From assembly GCA_016209865.1 (NCBI GenBank), contig JACQVL010000072.1, positions 1 to 9,997 of the forward strand: DNA of 9,997 bases. Direction: 5' to 3'. Each line of letters starts with the position of its first letter. Position 1 is the first letter of the stretch. The notes beneath the pieces were generated by a model. That model was not told the origin of the DNA. It searched no databases and was given only the letters and a program-made list of their open reading frames with translations. Shown here one piece after another: positions 45 through 9,997 of this stretch. Position numbers and translations under genes: made by a program. This DNA is from Candidatus Latescibacterota bacterium (GTDB taxonomy: Bacteria; JAAXHH01; JACQVL01).

Positions 45-60
45 TGGCACGATTGTTGCG
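45..60 (+). promoter_or_regulatory. sigma-54 (RpoN) -24/-12 promoter
   Basis: The sequence TGGCACGATTGTTGCG matches the RpoN consensus TGGCACG-N4-TTGCW at every fixed position except the last base. The -24 TGGCAC is at 45-50 and the -12 TTGC at 56-59, with the required 5-bp gap. Transcription should start near position 71 and leave a leader of about 90 nt before the small cysteine-rich gene at 162. Enhancer sites, if present, would lie left of the window. A sigma-54 activator gene is encoded at 3362-4723 and is the obvious candidate regulator, but that link is inference. Confidence 0.8.
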
Positions 61-161: not shown

Positions 162-506
162 ATGACATGGGAAGAGGCCAGACAACGGAGCATCACGAAA
201 TGGAATCTGCTGCTCGATCTGATGGCTGTCCAGGATAAGAAGACGTTTCTCCAGGAGACGGCGGAGGCGTGCGCCTTCTGTGAGAAGGCGATCGACCTCT
301 GGACCCAGGCGGGACGGGTCACGCGCATCCAGTGCCCATTCTGCGAGGCGTACATCCAGACCGGGGGATGCCGGCACCCGATCGACAACCTGCAGATGGC
401 CGTGGCGGACGATGACTGGGATTCGGCCCGGCAGCAAGTCGAGGCGATCATCCAGATGTTACAGCGGCTCGACCTTCCGATCGAAGAGTCGATCGCCGAC
501 CGTTGA
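162..506 (+). CDS. small cysteine-rich protein, possibly metal-binding (hypothetical)
   Basis: This is a 114-residue soluble protein whose family I do not recognise. The start is well supported: a strong Shine-Dalgarno, AAGGAGGAGG at 147-156, lies 5 nt before the ATG. The middle carries two CxxC pairs (C37-C40 in ACAFC and C58-C61 in QCPFC), then C70 and H72 in GGCRH. This spacing suggests a zinc- or iron-binding ribbon. The flanks look helical, and the C-terminal third is acidic and amphipathic. There is no signal peptide or membrane segment. The gene sits behind the sigma-54 promoter at 45-60, so it probably belongs to the same regulon as the genes at 2095-7065. Its 3' end overlaps the convergent membrane-protein gene by 59 bp. 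A regulatory or metal-sensing partner of the module is possible, but that is a guess. Confidence 0.75.
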   Translation: MTWEEARQRSITKWNLLLDLMAVQDKKTFLQETAEACAFCEKAIDLWTQAGRVTRIQCPFCEAYIQTGGCRHPIDNLQMAVADDDWDSARQQVEAIIQMLQRLDLPIEESIADR

Positions 507-1641
507 CCGTCGCCTTTCGCACCCCATACCCGGTGTTCCCGAAGAAGAACACCAGGACGAACGCGTTGAGGAGGCCGCTCCATTCGCGTCCCGGCGACCA
601 GGACATCAGGTCGCTCGCCACGCGCGCCAGCAGGGTCAGGTGCAGCAGGACGAGATGGACGTAGAACGCGGGACGAAACGCGACAGGAAGCTTGAGCACC
701 GCTGGCACGATGACGGGCGCGTGGCCGAAGATCATGGAAAACACAAACCCTAAGAAGAACGTGTGGAGGATGGCGTCGTAGGGGAGGCCGCCGATCACCC
801 GTCCGAACCCGATTCTCAACAGCCCGCTGGCTCCCAGCCAGACATAGCCAGTCAGCAGGCAGACTGCGATGAAGCGCGGCAGTCCTGTCTGCCGCACCGT
901 CTGCCGGGCGATGTCATACCGGAGCAGCCAGACGGCCAGGCCGGCCATCGCAAGGCCAGCGAGGCGCTCGCCGAGGGTGAAGAGGGGTGACACAAACAGA
1001 AGTTCCCCCTGCGCTCCGGAGAGGAGTTGAAACTCCTGATCAATGGCGAAGCCGATTCCAGTCAGGCCTATCCCGGCGAGAAATACCCCCAGCATCGCAG
1101 AGAACAGGACACGGCTGCGCCGGGACGGCCGGAGCAGGCGCGTGAGTTCCAGCCGTTCCCCCGCGATCGTCAGCAGGAGGAACCCCATCCACCAGGGCAC
1201 GACCGCAAACAGCGGCCAGCCGGCCAGCCGCAGACTATTGCCGGTCAGCCAGATGAGGGCTCCAAGCCCGATGCAGACGGTGTACAGCGCAGGCTGGCGC
1301 CGGATGAACGTGACGAACAGGGCGACCAGCCCGGCGCTGCCGAGGGTGATGCTGAGCACGGCGAGGGGAGAGGCCGGCATGGCGATGAGTCCCACCCCTC
1401 CCAGGCCGGCGAGGAAAGGAACGGAATACCCCCACCACCTGTCCAGCGCCACTGCACGCTCCACGCAGATGAGCGTGCCTAAGAACCCGCATACCATCAG
1501 CGGGCCGTGCGCGATGAGGAGGTCGAGGTTGGGCAACGGCAACCCCCAGCCCAGACGGACGAGTCCGGCGTCTAAGGCGGCGAACAACGCCAGAGCGCCC
1601 ATCGCCAGCAGGGGAAAGCGGATGTGGTATCGCGTGATCAT
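448..1641 (-). CDS. NnrS-like polytopic membrane protein
   Basis: The product is a 397-residue, very hydrophobic protein with roughly ten to twelve membrane segments and no large soluble domain. It is related in style to NnrS and heme-copper-oxidase subunit I-like proteins. An early histidine sits in a membrane segment (H45, in LLIAHGPLMVCGF). A late segment, LHTFFLGFVFSMIFGHAP, holds H293 and H307, and resembles the histidine-containing late helix of NnrS. NnrS family members bind heme and copper and relieve nitric-oxide stress. Whether this protein binds metal is inferred from the histidines. The ATG at 1641 has no clear Shine-Dalgarno. About 300 nt upstream lies a leftward sigma-54 promoter (1952-1967), so the gene is probably co-regulated with the divergent operon. 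Its C-terminus (about the last 20 residues, polar) overlaps the convergent gene at 162-506. A second, longer relative is encoded at 5638-7065. Confidence 0.7.
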   Translation of the reverse strand: MITRYHIRFPLLAMGALALFAALDAGLVRLGWGLPLPNLDLLIAHGPLMVCGFLGTLICVERAVALDRWWGYSVPFLAGLGGVGLIAMPASPLAVLSITLGSAGLVALFVTFIRRQPALYTVCIGLGALIWLTGNSLRLAGWPLFAVVPWWMGFLLLTIAGERLELTRLLRPSRRSRVLFSAMLGVFLAGIGLTGIGFAIDQEFQLLSGAQGELLFVSPLFTLGERLAGLAMAGLAVWLLRYDIARQTVRQTGLPRFIAVCLLTGYVWLGASGLLRIGFGRVIGGLPYDAILHTFFLGFVFSMIFGHAPVIVPAVLKLPVAFRPAFYVHLVLLHLTLLARVASDLMSWSPGREWSGLLNAFVLVFFFGNTGYGVRKATVNGRRSTLRSEGRAAVTSG

Positions 1642-1722: not shown

Positions 1723-1818
1723 TGACAGACTGTCAATCCTCACCAGCCTCGTCCAACCCTTCTCTGACATTTTGACGAAACAGACGAAAATTCCCCCGGT
1801 TCCTGCGACATTTTGTCA
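1723..1818. promoter_or_regulatory. three phased palindromes, candidate enhancer (UAS) sites
   Basis: Three 13-bp inverted repeats share the pattern TGACA-N3-TGTCA. They are TGACAGACTGTCA at 1723-1735 (perfect), TGACATTTTGACG at 1765-1777 (right arm degenerate) and CGACATTTTGTCA at 1806-1818 (one mismatch). Their centres (1729, 1771, 1812) are 42 and 41 bp apart, about four helical turns, so all three face the same side of the DNA. They lie about 190-290 bp upstream of the start expected from the rightward sigma-54 promoter, a usual distance for activator binding. They also lie downstream of the leftward promoter start, where enhancers can still act. The Fis-type activator encoded at 3362-4723 is the likely ligand. 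That assignment is inference. Confidence 0.6.
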
Positions 1819-1853
1819 ATGCCTACCCGGCCTTCTCATCAATTTTGATCATC

Positions 1854-1920
1854 AGGGGCGGGTATGGTCTGCGGGGGTGACCCGATGGATCGCCCAGGCC
1901 GAGGCGACGCCTCGCCCCTA
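1854..1920. repeat. GC-rich intergenic hairpin element
   Basis: The element is bounded by AGGGGCG (1854-1860) and its complement CGCCCCT (1913-1919). Near its right end it holds a perfect palindrome, CGAGGCGACGCCTCG (1900-1914), with 7-bp arms around one base. Read on the minus strand it begins GTAGGGGCGAGGCG, a style of short mobile or repetitive intergenic element seen in many GC-rich environmental genomes. It lies in the predicted 5' leader of the leftward NnrS-like transcript, so the folded RNA could affect expression. I see no second copy in this window. Confidence 0.55.
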
Positions 1921-1951
1921 CAACGATGACCCATCTTGATCGTGAAACGGG

Positions 1952-1967
1952 AGCAACAACCATGCCA
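1952..1967 (-). promoter_or_regulatory. leftward sigma-54 promoter
   Basis: On the minus strand this reads TGGCATGGTTGTTGCT. It has one mismatch to the RpoN consensus TGGCACG-N4-TTGCW (T for C at the sixth base), correct 5-bp spacing, and the preferred G after the -24 block and T at the end. Transcription should begin near 1941 and run toward the NnrS-like gene at 1641, leaving a leader of about 300 nt that includes the hairpin element and the candidate enhancer sites. It lies back to back with the rightward promoter, with the two -24 blocks 17 bp apart. Confidence 0.65.
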
Positions 1968-1984
1968 GAGACGGGCGGCGACGC

Positions 1985-1999
1985 TGGCACTCTTTTTGC
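1985..1999 (+). promoter_or_regulatory. rightward sigma-54 promoter of the radical SAM operon
   Basis: TGGCAC (1985-1990) and TTGC (1996-1999) are separated by TCTTT, giving perfect -24 and -12 cores with the standard gap and a T-rich spacer. The predicted start is near 2010, leaving a leader of about 85 nt before the ATG at 2095. The sigma-54 activator is the second gene of the downstream series, so it may amplify its own expression. Confidence 0.8.
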
Positions 2000-2045
2000 C
2001 ATGTTGCACGGATGATGCAACACTGTGAAGATGCGGTTCTGGTTT

Positions 2046-2094: not shown

Positions 2095-3270
2095 ATGATC
2101 TCGGCAGAACGGGGTATCCAGCCTGGGGAACGGACGCGTCCCGGCCCTCCGGCAATGGCCTGGATCGATTTTCACGCATCCCCGTTTCTCGTCATCTGGG
2201 AGGTCACGCAGGCCTGCGACCTCGCCTGCGTCCACTGCCGGGCAAAGGCGCAGTCGTTCCGCGACCCGCGCGAACTGACGACCGTGGAGGGGTTCCGGCT
2301 GATCGACCAGATCCGTGAGTTCGGGCAGCCGTTGTTCGTCCTCACCGGGGGCGACCCGATGAAGCGTCCGGACATCTTCGACTTCATCGCCTACGGGACC
2401 CAACGGGGACTCCGGATGGCGATGACACCGAGCGGGACGGCGCTCATGACGCGCGAGGCGGTCGCCCGGCTGAAGGCCCACGGCCTGGCCCGTCTGGCGA
2501 TCAGCCTGGACGGTTCATCTGCCGACATCCATGACACCTTCCGCCGGGTGCCCGGCTCGTATACCTGGACGACCCGATGCGTCGAGTACGCCCGGCAACT
2601 CGACCTGCCCGTCCAGATCAACACGACGATGACCCGGCACAACTTCGACGACTTCGACGCGATGGCGGCGCTGGTGGAGCGGTTGGGGATCGTGCTCTGG
2701 AGCGTGTTCTTCCTCGTCCCGGTCGGCCGGGGACGGAAAGAAGATGAGTTGACACCCCAGGAATATGAGATCATTTTCAATAAACTGTACGACCTGTCCC
2801 GTGTCGTCCCGTTCGACATCAAGACGACCGCCGCGCCCCATTATCGCCGGGTCGTCCTCCAGCGGCGCCGGGCGGAGGATGGCGGGACGGACGGGCCGCG
2901 CCCCGTCGGGTTCATCCCCGGCGACGGCATCGGCCGCGCCCCGAAGGGAGTCAACGAGGCGAACGGCCTGGTGTTCATCTCCCATACGGGCGAGGTCTAC
3001 CCCAGCGGGTTCCTGCCGCTGTCCGGGGGGAACGTCCGGGAACGGTCGCTCGTCGACATCTACCGCAACACGAAGCTCTTCCAGTTGCTCCGCGACTCCT
3101 CTCAGCTCAGGGGGAAGTGCGGGTACTGCGACTTCCGGGACGTCTGCGGCGGGTCACGCGCCCGTGCGTACGCGCTGACGGGCAACCCGATGGCGTCGGA
3201 GCCGTACTGTGTGTACAGGCCGCCCCGTCCCAAGGCCCTTCCCCACCGGGCAGTAGGCAGTGGGCAGTAG
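2095..3270 (+). CDS. radical SAM/SPASM protein, related to the heme-pathway NirJ/AhbD group
   Basis: The product is a 391-residue radical SAM enzyme. C41, C45 and C48 form the CxxxCxxC motif (CDLACVHC) that binds the catalytic [4Fe-4S] cluster and S-adenosylmethionine. LTGGDP follows as the GGE-type SAM-binding motif, and AISLDG marks the next barrel strand. The C-terminal cysteine cluster (GKCGYCDFRDVCGG ... EPYC) is of the SPASM/twitch kind that holds an auxiliary Fe-S cluster. The overall sequence best recalls the TIGR04053 family, a sister group of the NirJ and AhbD enzymes of heme d1 and alternative heme synthesis. The substrate is unknown. The ATG at 2095 is chosen over the in-frame TTG at 2071 because AAGGAG (2081-2086) lies 8 nt before it. 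The last seven residues, including the TAG stop, are encoded by a heptad repeat. It is the first gene behind the rightward sigma-54 promoter. Confidence 0.88.
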   Translation: MISAERGIQPGERTRPGPPAMAWIDFHASPFLVIWEVTQACDLACVHCRAKAQSFRDPRELTTVEGFRLIDQIREFGQPLFVLTGGDPMKRPDIFDFIAYGTQRGLRMAMTPSGTALMTREAVARLKAHGLARLAISLDGSSADIHDTFRRVPGSYTWTTRCVEYARQLDLPVQINTTMTRHNFDDFDAMAALVERLGIVLWSVFFLVPVGRGRKEDELTPQEYEIIFNKLYDLSRVVPFDIKTTAAPHYRRVVLQRRRAEDGGTDGPRPVGFIPGDGIGRAPKGVNEANGLVFISHTGEVYPSGFLPLSGGNVRERSLVDIYRNTKLFQLLRDSSQLRGKCGYCDFRDVCGGSRARAYALTGNPMASEPYCVYRPPRPKALPHRAVGSGQ

Positions 3271-3361: not shown

Positions 3362-4723
3362 ATGCCGCAGCACAGCCATGAATACTTCGAGACTCTCCTG
3401 AACGCGATGGAAGAGGGAGCGATGGCGCTCGACCGGAATCAGACGATCATCGCGTTCAACCGGGCGGCGTCCGTATTGACCGGGGTGCCCGTGCACCAGG
3501 CGATCGGACAGAAATGCTACGAGGTCTGCCGGGGGAGTCTCTGTCTCACCGAGACGTGTCCCGTCCTCATCTCCATCGACACCGGACAGCCGGTTGAGAA
3601 CTCCGAGATGACCGTTCGTGCTCAGGATGGAGACCTCCGGGTCGTCAAGATCCATACCGGGCTGCTGCGCGACAAGCAGGGGAACGTCACCGGGGCGATC
3701 GAACTCCTCCGGGATGTGACGGACACGCGTGCGCTCGAAAAACAGTTGCAGGAGCGACGACAATTCACCAACCTCATCGGCAAGAGCAAGCCGATGCAGC
3801 GGCTCTACCAGTTGATCGAAGACATCAGCGATTCCGACGCCACCGTCCTGATCTTGGGGGAAACCGGCACCGGGAAAGAGCTGGTGGCGGAGGCGATCCA
3901 TTTTCACAGCCCGCGGGCGAACGGGCCGCTCATCAAGGTGAACTGTTCGGCGTTCCCGGAGACGCTCTTGGAGAGCGAGCTCTTCGGTCATGTCCGGGGG
4001 GCGTACACCGGCGCGGTCTCGGACAAGCCCGGACGGTTCGAGCTGGCGGACGGGGGAACGCTCTTCTTAGATGAGATCGGGGACATCAGCCCCGCCGTCC
4101 AGTTGCGGCTCCTCCGCGTCCTCGAACGGCACGAGTTCGAGCGATTAGGCGACATCCGCACCCGCAAAGTCAACGTCCGGCTCATCACCGCGACGAACAA
4201 AGACCTGCGGGCGTCGGTCGCCAACCGGACGTTCCGGGAGGACCTGTTCTACCGGCTGAACGTCGTCCCCATCATCCTCCCGACGCTCCGGGAACGCCGG
4301 GATGACATCCCGCTGTTGGTGGAACATTTCATCCACAAACTCCGGAGCCGGACTGGCCGGGGGATCGACCACATCTCCGGGGCGGCGCTCGGACGCCTGA
4401 TGGCGCACGACTGGCCGGGGAACATTCGAGAATTAGAGAACACCTTAGAGTTCGCGTTCGTCGCGTGCAAGAACGCAGTGATCGAAATCTCCGATCTCCC
4501 TCCCATCGTTCACTCCGGCTCATCGACGACCGGATACAACGAGGGCCCGTTCCACGCGCTGGACGAGCACCGGGCGGGCGAGCGGGACGCTCTGCTCGCT
4601 ATGCTGGAGGCCACCCGCTGGCGGATGAAGGCGTGTGCGCAAGCGCTCGGCATCGACCGGACGACGCTGTGGCGAAAGATGAAGCGGTACGGGATTTCGA
4701 GAGCAAAAGAGGGTGGTCAGTGA
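3362..4723 (+). CDS. sigma-54-dependent activator, PAS-AAA+-Fis HTH
   Basis: This 453-residue enhancer-binding protein remodels RpoN holoenzyme by ATP hydrolysis. An N-terminal PAS domain (about 5-115) is followed by a short coiled linker (120-138). The AAA+ domain runs from about 140 to 370, with Walker A GETGTGKE (166-173), sigma-54 contact loop GAYTGA (213-218; Y replaces the usual F, a common variant), Walker B LFLDE (234-238), the arginine-finger region REDLFYRLN and sensor II WPGNIRELE. A Fis-type helix-turn-helix occupies about 410-448. There is no receiver domain, so the PAS domain is the likely sensor. It carries four cysteines, C52, C56, C61 and C66, that could bind a metal or Fe-S cluster. 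The ATG at 3362 is chosen over TTG at 3350 because GGAGG (3352-3356) precedes it by 5 nt. The stop codon lies in a heptad repeat. It probably controls the sigma-54 promoters in this window. Confidence 0.93.
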   Translation: MPQHSHEYFETLLNAMEEGAMALDRNQTIIAFNRAASVLTGVPVHQAIGQKCYEVCRGSLCLTETCPVLISIDTGQPVENSEMTVRAQDGDLRVVKIHTGLLRDKQGNVTGAIELLRDVTDTRALEKQLQERRQFTNLIGKSKPMQRLYQLIEDISDSDATVLILGETGTGKELVAEAIHFHSPRANGPLIKVNCSAFPETLLESELFGHVRGAYTGAVSDKPGRFELADGGTLFLDEIGDISPAVQLRLLRVLERHEFERLGDIRTRKVNVRLITATNKDLRASVANRTFREDLFYRLNVVPIILPTLRERRDDIPLLVEHFIHKLRSRTGRGIDHISGAALGRLMAHDWPGNIRELENTLEFAFVACKNAVIEISDLPPIVHSGSSTTGYNEGPFHALDEHRAGERDALLAMLEATRWRMKACAQALGIDRTTLWRKMKRYGISRAKEGGQ

Positions 4724-4758
4724 TCGGTGGTCAGTGGTCGGTTAAAATCGGTTAAAAT
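4713..4758 (+). repeat. heptad repeat between activator and ywiC-like gene
   Basis: Four heptads, GTGGTCA, GTGATCG, GTGGTCA and GTGGTCG (4713-4740), are followed by an AT-rich tail in which GTTAAAAT occurs twice. The first heptads encode the last residues (GGQ) and the TGA stop (4721-4723) of the activator. The tail runs directly into the ATG of the next gene and supplies no Shine-Dalgarno, so translation of that gene may rely on a leaderless-like or unstructured AT-rich site. Confidence 0.85.
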
Positions 4759-5613
4759 ATGAGGCTCAGCCGTCCTCCTTTCCCCCATGAACACGGCGCC
4801 TGGGTGATGCTGTATGCGCCACTGGTGATCGTCCTGGCGGCGGTGCGTCCTGTTGCCGTTCTCCCCTCTCTCTTCCTCATCCTTACGGTGACCAGCGTGT
4901 TCTTAGGGCAGTATGCCCTTCGGGTATTCATCCGGCGGCGCGGCCCCAGGTTGGTCGTCGCCTGGCTGGGGGTTGAACTGACGTTGCTCGCCGCTGGTCT
5001 GCTTCCCCTCCTGTTCGTCTACCGCCTGACCGGTCTTCTCGCCATCGGCGCGTTAGCGGCCGCGCTGTTCGGCCTGCACACCCTGCTGCTCTACTGGCCG
5101 TCGCGCAAGCGGCTCGACCGCTCGCAGTGGGGAGAAACCTTAGCCGTCGGCGCGCTGGCGCTCACCGCCCCCGCCGCATACGTCGTCGCACGCGGCGGCC
5201 TCGACCCCATCGCCTGGTCGATCTGGGCGGCGTGCGTTCTGTACTTCAGCAGCGGAATCTTCTACGTCAACATGCTCCTCTCCGCCGCCCGGATCAGGGG
5301 GGAGTTCGATGCGCGCGACCGCTGGCGGGTCGGGCGTGACCTCGTCGTCTACCATGTCCTGCTCATCCTGGTGGTCGGGGGGGCCAGCCTGGCCATCGGC
5401 GGGTGGGCCGCCCCGCTGGCGGCGCTGGCGTACGTCCCCGTCCTCGTCCGCGCGTTCTGGGGATGGGCGACGCTCTCGAACGAACTGCCCCCGCTCACGC
5501 GCGTCGGTCTGCGTGAGGTCGCCTACACGCTCTGGTTCACGGGAGTGTTCGTGGCCGCGTTGCGGTCGATGGCGGAAATCAGTGGTCGGTGGTCGGTGGT
5601 CGGTGGTCAGTGA
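4759..5613 (+). CDS. YwiC-like integral membrane protein
   Basis: The product is a 284-residue membrane protein with about nine hydrophobic segments. Near the N-terminus it carries the hallmark PHEHGAW (residues 9-15), as in the YwiC-like family. In Bacillus ywiC lies among the nitrate respiration and fnr genes, but its biochemical role is not established. The start at 4759 is required because the conserved motif begins only eight residues later; no ribosome-binding site is visible. The gene follows the sigma-54 activator by 35 bp and precedes the second NnrS-like gene by 24 bp, so it is probably in the same operon. The natural protein seems to end near AEIS. The last nine residues (GRWSVVGGQ) and the stop codon are translated heptad repeat. 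A role linked to nitrogen-oxide or heme metabolism is inference from context. Confidence 0.85.
   Translation: MRLSRPPFPHEHGAWVMLYAPLVIVLAAVRPVAVLPSLFLILTVTSVFLGQYALRVFIRRRGPRLVVAWLGVELTLLAAGLLPLLFVYRLTGLLAIGALAAALFGLHTLLLYWPSRKRLDRSQWGETLAVGALALTAPAAYVVARGGLDPIAWSIWAACVLYFSSGIFYVNMLLSAARIRGEFDARDRWRVGRDLVVYHVLLILVVGGASLAIGGWAAPLAALAYVPVLVRAFWGWATLSNELPPLTRVGLREVAYTLWFTGVFVAALRSMAEISGRWSVVGGQ
5582..5613 (+). repeat. heptad repeat at the end of the ywiC-like gene
   Basis: Three GTGGTCG units and one GTGGTCA are followed by GTGA. The TGA stop of the ywiC-like gene (5611-5613) is supplied by the element. It is the most uniform copy in the window and the third successive gene end formed by this repeat family. 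Confidence 0.88.
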
Positions 5614-5637
5614 AACCCCCTATCAGCATGCTTGAAC

Positions 5638-7065
5638 ATGAATCACTCCTCCGTCGAGCGGTCTCATGCTGCGTTCTTTCTCGAATTCGTCTACGCCGGC
5701 CTGTGTCTCGCGCTGACCGCCGGGTTCGGGTATGCGGCCGTCTTAGCGGTCTTCCTCAGCTTCGGCCTCCCGCTCGGCGACTGGTGGATTCCGATGATCC
5801 AGGCGCACGGCCACGCCCAGCTCTGGGGATGGACGGGCTTGTTCATCATCGGGGTCAGCCTCCATTTCGTCCCGCGTCTGACGGGGACGCCGCTCCGCTT
5901 TCCCTCTCTGGCCCGGTGGGTCTGCGGGCTGTTGTTCACCGCCGTCCTCGTCCGATCGATCACGCAGCCGATCCTGGCGGCCTTGACCGAGGGGACGTTC
6001 CGGTGTGCGCTCCGGTGGGGCATGGGCGGCGCTGCCGTCGTTGAAGCAGCGGCGGTCGGCCTCTATCTCGTCCTCCTCGGCGGGGCGATGCGCTCCGCTC
6101 GCCAGGAAGAGGAGTCTCCGCTTCGCTCGGTGCGGCTCTACCTGACGACCGCGCTGTGCGGGTGGAGCGTGTCCACCCTGCTCATGAACGGCCTGGCGGT
6201 GCGATCCGCCGTTGCGGACGATCCCCTGCTCAGCCCGACCTGGACGCCGGTGGCGGAGAACCTGTACACCGGCCTGGTGGTATTGCCCGTCGCCATGGCC
6301 TTCTCCATTCGCACGTTCCCCCTGTACCTTCGCCTGCCCGCCCCGCGCTGGCCGGTCCGGTGGCTCGGACTGCTCTACCTGTGCGGGTTCGGACTGGAGA
6401 CGATCCCGGATGCGCTCAACCTGTTGGGAGCGTTTCCGGGGGATGTCCGGTTGGGGATCGCCCTCACCAGCGCGGGGCAGGTGCTCAAGGGAATCGTCCT
6501 CCTCTGGTTTATCTGGGAGCTGGATATTCTGGTGCGGCGCAAACCGCCCTGGACGGTCGACCGGAGAGAGCCTATCCGAGAGCCACGGCGGCCTACTCGT
6601 CCAGGACTGCCGGATTACGGGGAATTCGGCCGGTTTGAACGGCTGCTCTACGGGGCGTACGTCTGGCTGGCGGTGGGGGCGGGGTTCGACATCGTGGCTG
6701 GGGCGGCTGTCCTGGGCGGCTGGGACCCGCCGGTGAACCAGGACGCCATTCGGCATGCTTACGTCGTCGGGTTTATCTCGTTCCTCATCCTTGGCATGGC
6801 GCCCCGGATGATTCCCGGGTTCGTCCACCAGCGACGGCTGGCGTTCCCCCGGCTGGTGAACGGGACGTTCTGGCTGGCCGTGAGCGCGGCCGTGTGCCGG
6901 GTGATTCCGCTGCTCATCCCCGTGCGCGTCGTGGAGCGGTTTCCGGTGATGGAGCCGCTCTCCACGGCGGCGTTCGGCCTGTCCGGTGCGCTGGGCTGGC
7001 TGGCGGTGCTGCTGCTCGCATGGAATTTGGTGGCGACGTGTGGGACGGGGCGGGAAGAAGCGTAG
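5638..7065 (+). CDS. NnrS-like / heme-copper-type polytopic membrane protein
   Basis: This is a 475-residue protein with about twelve membrane segments. An early segment carries HGHAQLWGW (H57 and H59), and a late one carries RHAYVVGFISFLILGMAPRM (H373), which closely recalls the NnrS signature of an early HxH pair and a late RHA...G...LGM helix. NnrS proteins bind heme and copper and protect denitrifiers from nitric oxide; the same histidines here support metal binding. A cytoplasmic stretch near 300-330 is rich in Arg and Pro. The ATG at 5638 is given as start; a TTG two codons earlier (5632) is possible, and neither has a good Shine-Dalgarno. The gene is last in the sigma-54 operon and ends 6 bp from the convergent deacetylase gene, with no room for a separate terminator. 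It is longer than, and diverged from, the NnrS-like protein at 448-1641. Confidence 0.82.
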   Translation: MNHSSVERSHAAFFLEFVYAGLCLALTAGFGYAAVLAVFLSFGLPLGDWWIPMIQAHGHAQLWGWTGLFIIGVSLHFVPRLTGTPLRFPSLARWVCGLLFTAVLVRSITQPILAALTEGTFRCALRWGMGGAAVVEAAAVGLYLVLLGGAMRSARQEEESPLRSVRLYLTTALCGWSVSTLLMNGLAVRSAVADDPLLSPTWTPVAENLYTGLVVLPVAMAFSIRTFPLYLRLPAPRWPVRWLGLLYLCGFGLETIPDALNLLGAFPGDVRLGIALTSAGQVLKGIVLLWFIWELDILVRRKPPWTVDRREPIREPRRPTRPGLPDYGEFGRFERLLYGAYVWLAVGAGFDIVAGAAVLGGWDPPVNQDAIRHAYVVGFISFLILGMAPRMIPGFVHQRRLAFPRLVNGTFWLAVSAAVCRVIPLLIPVRVVERFPVMEPLSTAAFGLSGALGWLAVLLLAWNLVATCGTGREEA

Positions 7066-8721: not shown

Positions 8722-9009
8722 ATGGCGGTCATCTTTGAATGGGATCCTCAGAAAGCCCAGACGAATCTCAGCACACATCGGGTCTCCTTTGAAGAAGCCA
8801 TGACTGTATTCTACGATCCTCTGTCGATTGCGATTGCGGACCCGCTCCATTCGGACCAGGAAGATCGGTTTGTCATCATTGGGGAGTCGCTCAACCGTCG
8901 CGTCTTGGTGGTGGTGCATACCGACCGAGGCGACCGCATTCGGCTGATCAGCGCCCGCGTGGCGACTCCTCAGGAAAGGAAACGGTATGAAAAAGGCCCG
9001 ACATTCTAA
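8722..9009 (+). CDS. brnT: BrnT-family toxin (ribonuclease)
   Basis: This 95-residue protein matches the BrnT family throughout: the N-terminal FEWDPQKAQTNLSTHRVSFEEA, the FYDPLSIAIADPLHSDQEDRF segment, and the C-terminal strand RLISARVATPQERKRYE. BrnT is a RelE-fold toxin that cleaves RNA and is neutralised by BrnA. Length is typical for the family and the frame is intact, so it is probably functional. The ATG at 8722 has no strong ribosome site. The gene overlaps the following antitoxin gene by 23 bp, the usual toxin-first arrangement of this system. It lies between ordinary genes and a CRISPR array, an accessory context. Confidence 0.92.
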   Translation: MAVIFEWDPQKAQTNLSTHRVSFEEAMTVFYDPLSIAIADPLHSDQEDRFVIIGESLNRRVLVVVHTDRGDRIRLISARVATPQERKRYEKGPTF

Positions 9010-9244
9010 GTCTGACCCCGACCTCTTAGAGGAATATGACTTCAGCCACGGGGTCCGGGGGAAATATATCGATCGGCTCGCGGCAGGGAGCAATCTGGTC
9101 CTCTTAGCCCCGGATGTCATCGCCGCGTTTCCAACGTCAGACGCGGTGAATGACGCCTTACGGTTACTCATCAAGGTGGCCAAGACCACCCGCAAGACAC
9201 CCCGGGGATCGACGCGGAAGACCAAGGTGTCCGCAGCGGTCTGA
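8987..9244 (+). CDS. brnA: BrnA-like antitoxin
   Basis: This 85-residue protein is encoded directly after, and overlapping, the BrnT gene. An acidic N-terminal part (DPDLLEEYDFSHGVRGKY) resembles the BrnA segment that wraps the toxin, and it is followed by LAPDVIAAFPTSDAVNDALRLLI, which corresponds to the ribbon-helix-helix DNA-binding part. The C-terminus is lysine- and arginine-rich (KTTRKTPRGSTRKTK), somewhat unusual for the family. GGAAAGGAAA precedes the ATG. It probably binds BrnT and represses the pair from the upstream inverted repeat. The family assignment rests on gene position and moderate sequence resemblance. Confidence 0.82.
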   Translation: MKKARHSKSDPDLLEEYDFSHGVRGKYIDRLAAGSNLVLLAPDVIAAFPTSDAVNDALRLLIKVAKTTRKTPRGSTRKTKVSAAV

Positions 9245-9586: not shown

Positions 9587-9997
9587 AGGTTCGTCCCCAC
9601 GCCTGTGGGGAACAGGGCGGCGGCGTTTAATTGACATCGCGCGACTCCGGTTCATCCCTACGCCTGTGGGGAACAGTCGCCTGGTTTTCCGTGTCACTCA
9701 CCGGACGTCGGTTCATCCCCACGCCTGTGGGGAACAGTGCAGGACTGGACGGAGCAGAACACGCTCGGTCGGTTCATCCCCACGCCTGTGGGGAACAGCC
9801 CCGATCTTTCTGTCAGGGTCACATCGCCCCCGGTTCATCCCCACGCCTGTGGGGAACAGAGCGTGGCGGCGGTGGACTATATGGATGCGGCCGGTTCATC
9901 CCCACGCCTGTGGGGAACAGATTGGGGACCCATTGATAGCGATGTTCCCCCTCGGTTCATCCCCACGCCTGTGGGGAACAGCCATGCGCACCAAGCA
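9587..9997 (-). CRISPR. type I-E-like CRISPR array, trailer end
   Basis: Seven repeats of 29 bp start at 9587, 9648, 9709, 9770, 9831, 9892 and 9953, separated by six spacers of exactly 32 bp; a seventh spacer is cut by the window end. The core CCCCACGCCTGTGGGG forms a 6-bp stem with a 4-nt loop. Read on the minus strand each unit ends ATGAACCG, matching the 8-nt 5' handle of type I-E crRNAs (ATAAACCG in E. coli), so transcription is probably leftward. The leftmost repeat has changes at 9587 and 9593, and the second has T for C at 9659, as expected at the oldest, leader-distal end. Leader and cas genes, if present, lie beyond the right edge. Several spacers have open frames, for example QDWTEQNTLG from 9740, consistent with protospacers from coding DNA. 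Confidence 0.96.

Follow-up and report, generated by a model that had tools for sequence, protein, structure and literature searches.

The NmpRSTU system of Myxococcus xanthus includes a protoglobin kinase, an NtrC-like regulator and sigma-54 (PMC11841059). Besides its own regulator genes, the targets of NmpR include a universal stress protein, a P-type ATPase, a CBS-domain protein and an oxygen-independent heme gene, and its operator is formed by GCGCA-N5-TGCGC pairs, usually 14-15 bp apart (PMC11841059). In the case of NorR, three dyads are needed for activator assembly (PMC2941729), and spacings of 19 and 25 bp separate the sites listed for the hmp gene of P. stutzeri (PMC1274295).

Here, an array of three dyads of the GACA-N3-TGTC type is described in a stretch of 9,997 nucleotides from a Candidatus Latescibacterota bacterium (the window), together with its counterparts at other loci and in other genomes. 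The source genome (G000) was compared with G015, the Ca. Latescibacterota MAG SI072_bin148 (same order, another family), with the Ca. Poribacteria MAGs G039 and G040, and with further genomes; all of these are MAGs in a fragmented state, and completeness is 83-85% for several.

Promoters, operator sites and genes of the window

Two -24/-12 promoters of the sigma-54 type were predicted in the window by consensus match (Table 1). A previous sequence-only reading of this DNA had proposed such a pair in opposed orientation, and this was confirmed by the low number of mismatches and by a GG-N10-GC core that is intact in both. The same reading had described three palindromes, the position and register of which were right (42 and then 41 bp from start to start); as sites 2 and 3 deviate from the consensus, their exactness had been overstated. 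A degenerate middle site was also found in the array at locus C194.

Table 1. Coordinates of the features of the window and of the candidate regulator encoded elsewhere in the source genome.
Feature	Position	Strand	Sequence	Match or description
Leftward sigma-54 -24/-12 promoter (predicted)	1952-1967	-	TGGCATGGTTGTTGCT	0 mismatches to TGGCAYN5TTGCW
Rightward sigma-54 -24/-12 promoter (predicted)	1985-2000	+	TGGCACTCTTTTTGCC	1 mismatch to TGGCAYN5TTGCW; array upstream
Putative operator site 1	1723-1735		TGACAGACTGTCA	0 mismatches to TGACA-N3-TGTCA; 24.0 bits, other-genome matrix
Putative operator site 2	1765-1777		TGACATTTTGACG	2 mismatches, right half weaker; 16.8 bits, other-genome matrix
Putative operator site 3	1806-1818		CGACATTTTGTCA	1 mismatch; 21.5 bits, other-genome matrix
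Leftward target, polytopic membrane protein	448-1641	-		NnrS-like by eye only
Rightward target 1, radical SAM/SPASM protein	2095-3270	+		AhbD/NirJ relative; NCBIfam TIGR04053, 477 bits (cut-off 395)
Rightward target 2, PAS-AAA+-Fis sigma-54 activator	3362-4723	+		Pfam
Rightward target 3, YwiC-like membrane protein	4759-5613	+		PF14256
Rightward target 4, COX1/NnrS-like membrane protein	5632-7065	+
Candidate binder, NtrC-family response regulator	C109, locus L032:3540-4901			Contig of G000 other than that of the window
Further sigma-54-like promoter	45-60	+	TGGCACGATTGTTGCG	1 mismatch; before gene 162-506
Small gene	162-506			114 aa, with CxxC pairs
Heptamer short repeats	1670-1700, 4721-4743, 5578-5615			GGTCAGT/GGTCGGT; at or near gene ends
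BrnT-type toxin gene and small ORF	8722-9244			PF04365; ORF in the usual antitoxin position
CRISPR array	9590-9981		about GGTTCATCCCCACGCCTGTGGGGAACAG	At least 6 repeat copies; continues past contig end

A Pfam search of the leftward product at E<=0.1 gave no match. The product of the last rightward gene is 36% identical to a COX1/NnrS-like protein of G039, the gene of which is beside a response regulator and an array. In the PAS domain of the activator, a Cys-rich stretch (CYEVCRGSLCLTETCPV) was seen, which could correspond to a metal or redox centre. Concerning other features, the heptamer repeat directly adjoins the array at one of its three places, and the contig begins just upstream of the further promoter-like match, so that any array upstream of it would have been lost. 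When the window was searched for Rfam families and tRNAs, no match was obtained.

Significance of the triplet

The triplet of the window scored 62.3 bits against a matrix derived exclusively from the arrays of G015, G039 and G040, compared to top scores of 18.4 bits among 400 random 10-kb sequences (4 Mb) and 3.7 bits elsewhere in the source genome (94 kb scored). Lone dyads with up to three mismatches showed no excess, the window having fewer of them than its shuffles; as single sites of such quality are not rare, the significance rests on the phased triplet. The two-site pattern GACA-N3-TGTC-N29-33-GACA-N3-TGTC was found four times in G000 and seven times in G015, was absent from 14 other genomes of the same order, and its backward control had no occurrence in all 16 genomes. 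The triplet of the window is not a product of chance.

The array at other loci

When the source genome was scanned with YGACA-N3-TGTCR, pairs at matching spacing were detected on other contigs. Triplets were present beside predicted sigma-54 promoters at C194, C109, C51, C170 and C354, in addition to the window, with a weak third site in the last two, and five array loci were detected in G015. When ~85,000 genomes were scanned for strict triplets, most matches were CRISPR or tandem repeats, which were excluded by spacer identity, and the non-repeat matches with sigma-54 promoters came from G015 and the two Poribacteria MAGs. Non-repeat triplets in Cupriavidus and Bacillota were set aside, as they had no sigma-54 promoters nearby.

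In total, triplets were found at 13 loci in four genomes, each with exactly three sites spaced by 40-43 bp (41.5 +/- 0.9 bp, equivalent to 3.95 turns of 10.5 bp); a fourth site, looked for on either side of these triplets, was not found. When the only two-site array is also counted, 13 out of 14 arrays have a sigma-54 promoter match with up to one mismatch within ~400 bp, against a background of 0.11 per kb. The 13 triplets of the source genome, G015 and the Poribacteria have the layout of an NtrC-family enhancer, in which several phased dyads lie at most a few hundred bp from the promoter, in agreement with the three-site enhancer suggested by the sequence-only reading. A whole-genome profile search recovered the arrays, which were part of its own training set. 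Its weak matches in G006 and G004, before a leuB-like gene and with neither promoter nor pair, were taken as chance. In G014 only degenerate arrays were found, one of which, before uspA, is plausible.

At C109, in G015 and in the Poribacteria, the array is usually flanked by two promoters that point outward. Both promoters are to the right of the array in the window and at C194, where it is therefore upstream of the rightward promoter and at the same time within the leader of the leftward one, which is 311 nt long in the window and 303 nt at C194.

A comparable geometry was observed at L101:2317-2411 (Acidimangrovimonas) and L130:4718-4812 (Defluviimonas), where three dyads of the form GGACA-N3-TGTCC, at an exact spacing of 42 bp, are located between an MFS transporter and a pair formed by a kinase and an NtrC-type regulator. 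This regulator is devoid of GAFTGA and no sigma-54 promoter match was found in the surroundings, so perhaps the same geometry is used there without sigma-54.

Genes adjoining the arrays

The products of genes that adjoin arrays include UspA in G000, G015 and G014, with an HMA P-type ATPase downstream of it, alanine dehydrogenase, acetyl-CoA hydrolase, a conserved lipoprotein and a cytidylate-kinase-like protein; CBS and nosZ genes adjoin arrays in both Poribacteria. The palindromes are kept beside orthologous operons in other families: proteins encoded next to an array are 67% identical for UspA (C170 versus C765 of G015) and 55% identical for the lipoprotein (C51 versus C765 of G015), and the MTHFR and methyltransferase genes keep the array at C194 and at C129 of G015. 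The nosZ frame behind the array of G040 (L226:1311-2096) ends after 261 codons, so the gene is either broken or misassembled in this MAG.

The array-adjoining genes seem fitted to life at low oxygen and to the respiration of nitrogen oxides. From these genes, together with a protoglobin kinase in G039 and narG in G015, we infer a regulon that would serve both oxygen limitation and nitrogen-oxide respiration.

A response regulator accompanies the arrays

When the sigma-54 activators of G000 were compared with those of G015, one response regulator, encoded on C109, stood out, as its HTH is nearly identical in G015. Relatives sharing the C-terminus AA-LLGI-SRTIYRKLD were found in G014, G039 and G040, and the clade formed by the five proteins was supported at 99/99 in a maximum-likelihood tree. 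Every array genome has a member of this clade, including G014 with its degenerate arrays only, and the best matches from nine genomes without strong arrays fall outside the clade or are at paralog level; the test thus compares five genomes with nine that are close relatives of one another.

The regulator gene is ~3 kb from an array in G000 and ~5 kb in G039, and in G040 it is a partial ORF directly behind the array promoter, in the operon that this promoter is predicted to drive. Pfam analysis of the G039 ortholog revealed the receiver-AAA+-HTH architecture of the NtrC type. The gene before the regulator in G039 encodes a protoglobin histidine kinase, which was searched for in G000, G014, G015 and G040 and found in none of them. 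The adjoining kinase of G000 has a PAS domain, and the regulator of G015 is near narG. As the clade follows the arrays through five genomes and adjoins them in three, the C109 regulator is the best candidate for the binder, most likely a better one than the PAS activator of the window.

Proposed mechanism and alternatives

We consider it probable that the C109 regulator, when phosphorylated, binds the triplet as three dimers, builds a hexamer and drives both promoters of a low-oxygen and nitrogen-oxide regulon. The window would then be one of about six copies in G000 of a standard sigma-54 enhancer made of three GACA-N3-TGTC dyads four turns apart. The three dimers would lie on one helix face, the AAA+ hexamer would assemble at the triplet, and DNA looping would bring it to the leftward or rightward promoter, leading to the opening of sigma-54 polymerase at both. 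Oxygen or NO could be the signal. The expected output would include UspA, the CBS protein, alanine dehydrogenase and the P-type ATPase, plus nosZ in Poribacteria; that of the window would be NnrS-like proteins, a heme-type radical SAM enzyme and a second sigma-54 activator. The latter is probably a downstream regulator and not the array binder, forming a second tier that would pass the signal further.

The sequence-only reading had instead assigned the binding to this PAS activator, which would autoregulate its own operon. Its gene comes second in the rightward operon, it has the Fis-type HTH of a sigma-54 activator, and activators frequently regulate their own operon. However, no ortholog was found in G014, G015, G039 or G040 (best matches at paralog level, E about 1e-82 to 1e-91), although arrays are present in the last three and weakly in the first; therefore, it is unlikely to be the binder. 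A real relative does exist in G016 (E 2.7e-130), but no array was found at its locus, and the five other array loci of G000 do not encode the window activator either. Its NorR equivalog score was 335.8 bits, below the cut-off of 476, so that it did not qualify as NorR. Binding by this protein is thus quite improbable, and even more so is the possibility that the palindromes are operators of a repressor, a CRP/FNR-like protein or another factor independent of sigma-54, sharing the promoters by happenstance. Short dyads like GACA-N3-TGTC are common among many regulator families, but the -24/-12 promoters that constantly accompany the arrays at enhancer distances, the phasing of the triplets and the co-occurrence of the arrays with one sigma-54 response regulator speak against a fortuitous neighbourhood. 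An origin of the triplet as a repeat or CRISPR-like artefact, or by chance, can be practically discarded: most triplet matches among the ~85,000 genomes were indeed repeat arrays with near-identical spacers, but the spacers between the sites of our arrays are unrelated in sequence, the control counts were zero, and the reading is refuted by a window score far exceeding that of random sequence.

A further question is whether the array serves both promoters, as the sequence-only reading had put forward. The anatomy that this requires, with the array upstream of the rightward promoter and downstream of the leftward one, held in the window and recurs at C194; that both promoters make use of it is what we infer. 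It is rather unlikely, though less so than the former alternatives, that the array serves only the rightward promoter, with the leftward match unused or driven by another activator and gene 448-1641 transcribed from a promoter of its own. A position downstream of the leftward promoter, inside its leader, is certainly unusual, and the array is usually between both promoters at C109, in G015 and in the Poribacteria. Against this, the leftward promoter is a perfect match, C194 has an equal order and a similar leader, and action from a downstream position is known for sigma-54 enhancers, as in the case of RocR and rocG in B. subtilis.

A more tentative proposal is that, in bacteria of the Latescibacterota/Poribacteria type, oxygen limitation and nitrogen-oxide respiration could be under a global regulator that works with sigma-54 and plays the role of FNR/DNR or DosR elsewhere, with a fixed four-turn, three-dyad operator that directs one hexamer to two promoters at once, at some loci from within one leader. 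A global regulon, its operator and its regulator are predicted for bacteria that are known here only from metagenome assemblies, and the prediction is testable in E. coli, making culture of the source bacteria unnecessary. The fixed geometry of three dyads and four turns lends itself to testing how the assembly of a sigma-54 activator hexamer is set by enhancer DNA, and the layouts of the window and C194 to testing whether a single enhancer can act simultaneously from upstream and downstream.

Comparison with known systems

No description of GACA-N3-TGTC triplets or of their regulon was found in the open-licence papers searched, in line with the suggestion of the sequence-only reading that the operator may be undescribed. 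The DosR dormancy regulon of Mycobacterium, subjected to two-component control by heme sensors, resembles the present one in its Usp, CBS, P-type ATPase and nitrogen-oxide targets, but DosR is a LuxR-type regulator that works without sigma-54 and at an operator unrelated to GACA-N3-TGTC.

The likeness to NorR lies in the three dyads, the sigma-54 promoter and the nitrogen-oxide theme, and three dimers on one helix face would suit its three-site model of hexamer assembly, here at four-turn spacing. In contrast, NorR is a one-component GAF protein and the candidate here is a response regulator. The sequence-only reading had likened the array to the NorR layout, which holds for the number of dyads but not for their spacing (~19-25 bp in the example listed for P. 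stutzeri hmp versus 41-42 bp here), and had considered the half-sites as inverted; actually, the register is the same and one base is changed per half, the core being GT-N7-AC in NorR sites and GA-N7-TC in the window and the other arrays (PMC1274295, PMC4987338). GlrR/QseF, with sites at glmY, also belongs to the NtrC family of response regulators and its half-sites are likewise TGTC and GACA, but these form TGTC-N10-GACA, in the opposite order and farther apart (PMC4987338).

Among known systems, NmpRSTU of M. xanthus comes closest. For the regulator of a Myxococcales MAG, its nearest proxy here (53% identical and adjoining a CBS gene), neither arrays nor NmpR-type sites beside it were convincing. 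Both systems have an NtrC-like response regulator that is used, or would be used, with sigma-54, several dyads per promoter, and USP, CBS and P-type ATPase genes, an oxygen-independent heme gene and the genes of the regulator itself among the targets, and a protoglobin kinase is shared in the case of G039 only. The hybrid kinase relay of NmpRSTU was not seen here, and the arrays are GACA-N3-TGTC triplets 41-42 bp apart instead of GCGCA-N5-TGCGC pairs, with nitrogen-oxide genes (nosZ, NnrS-like) among the targets. Therefore, the circuit and its targets are similar in both systems, whereas the operator is different.
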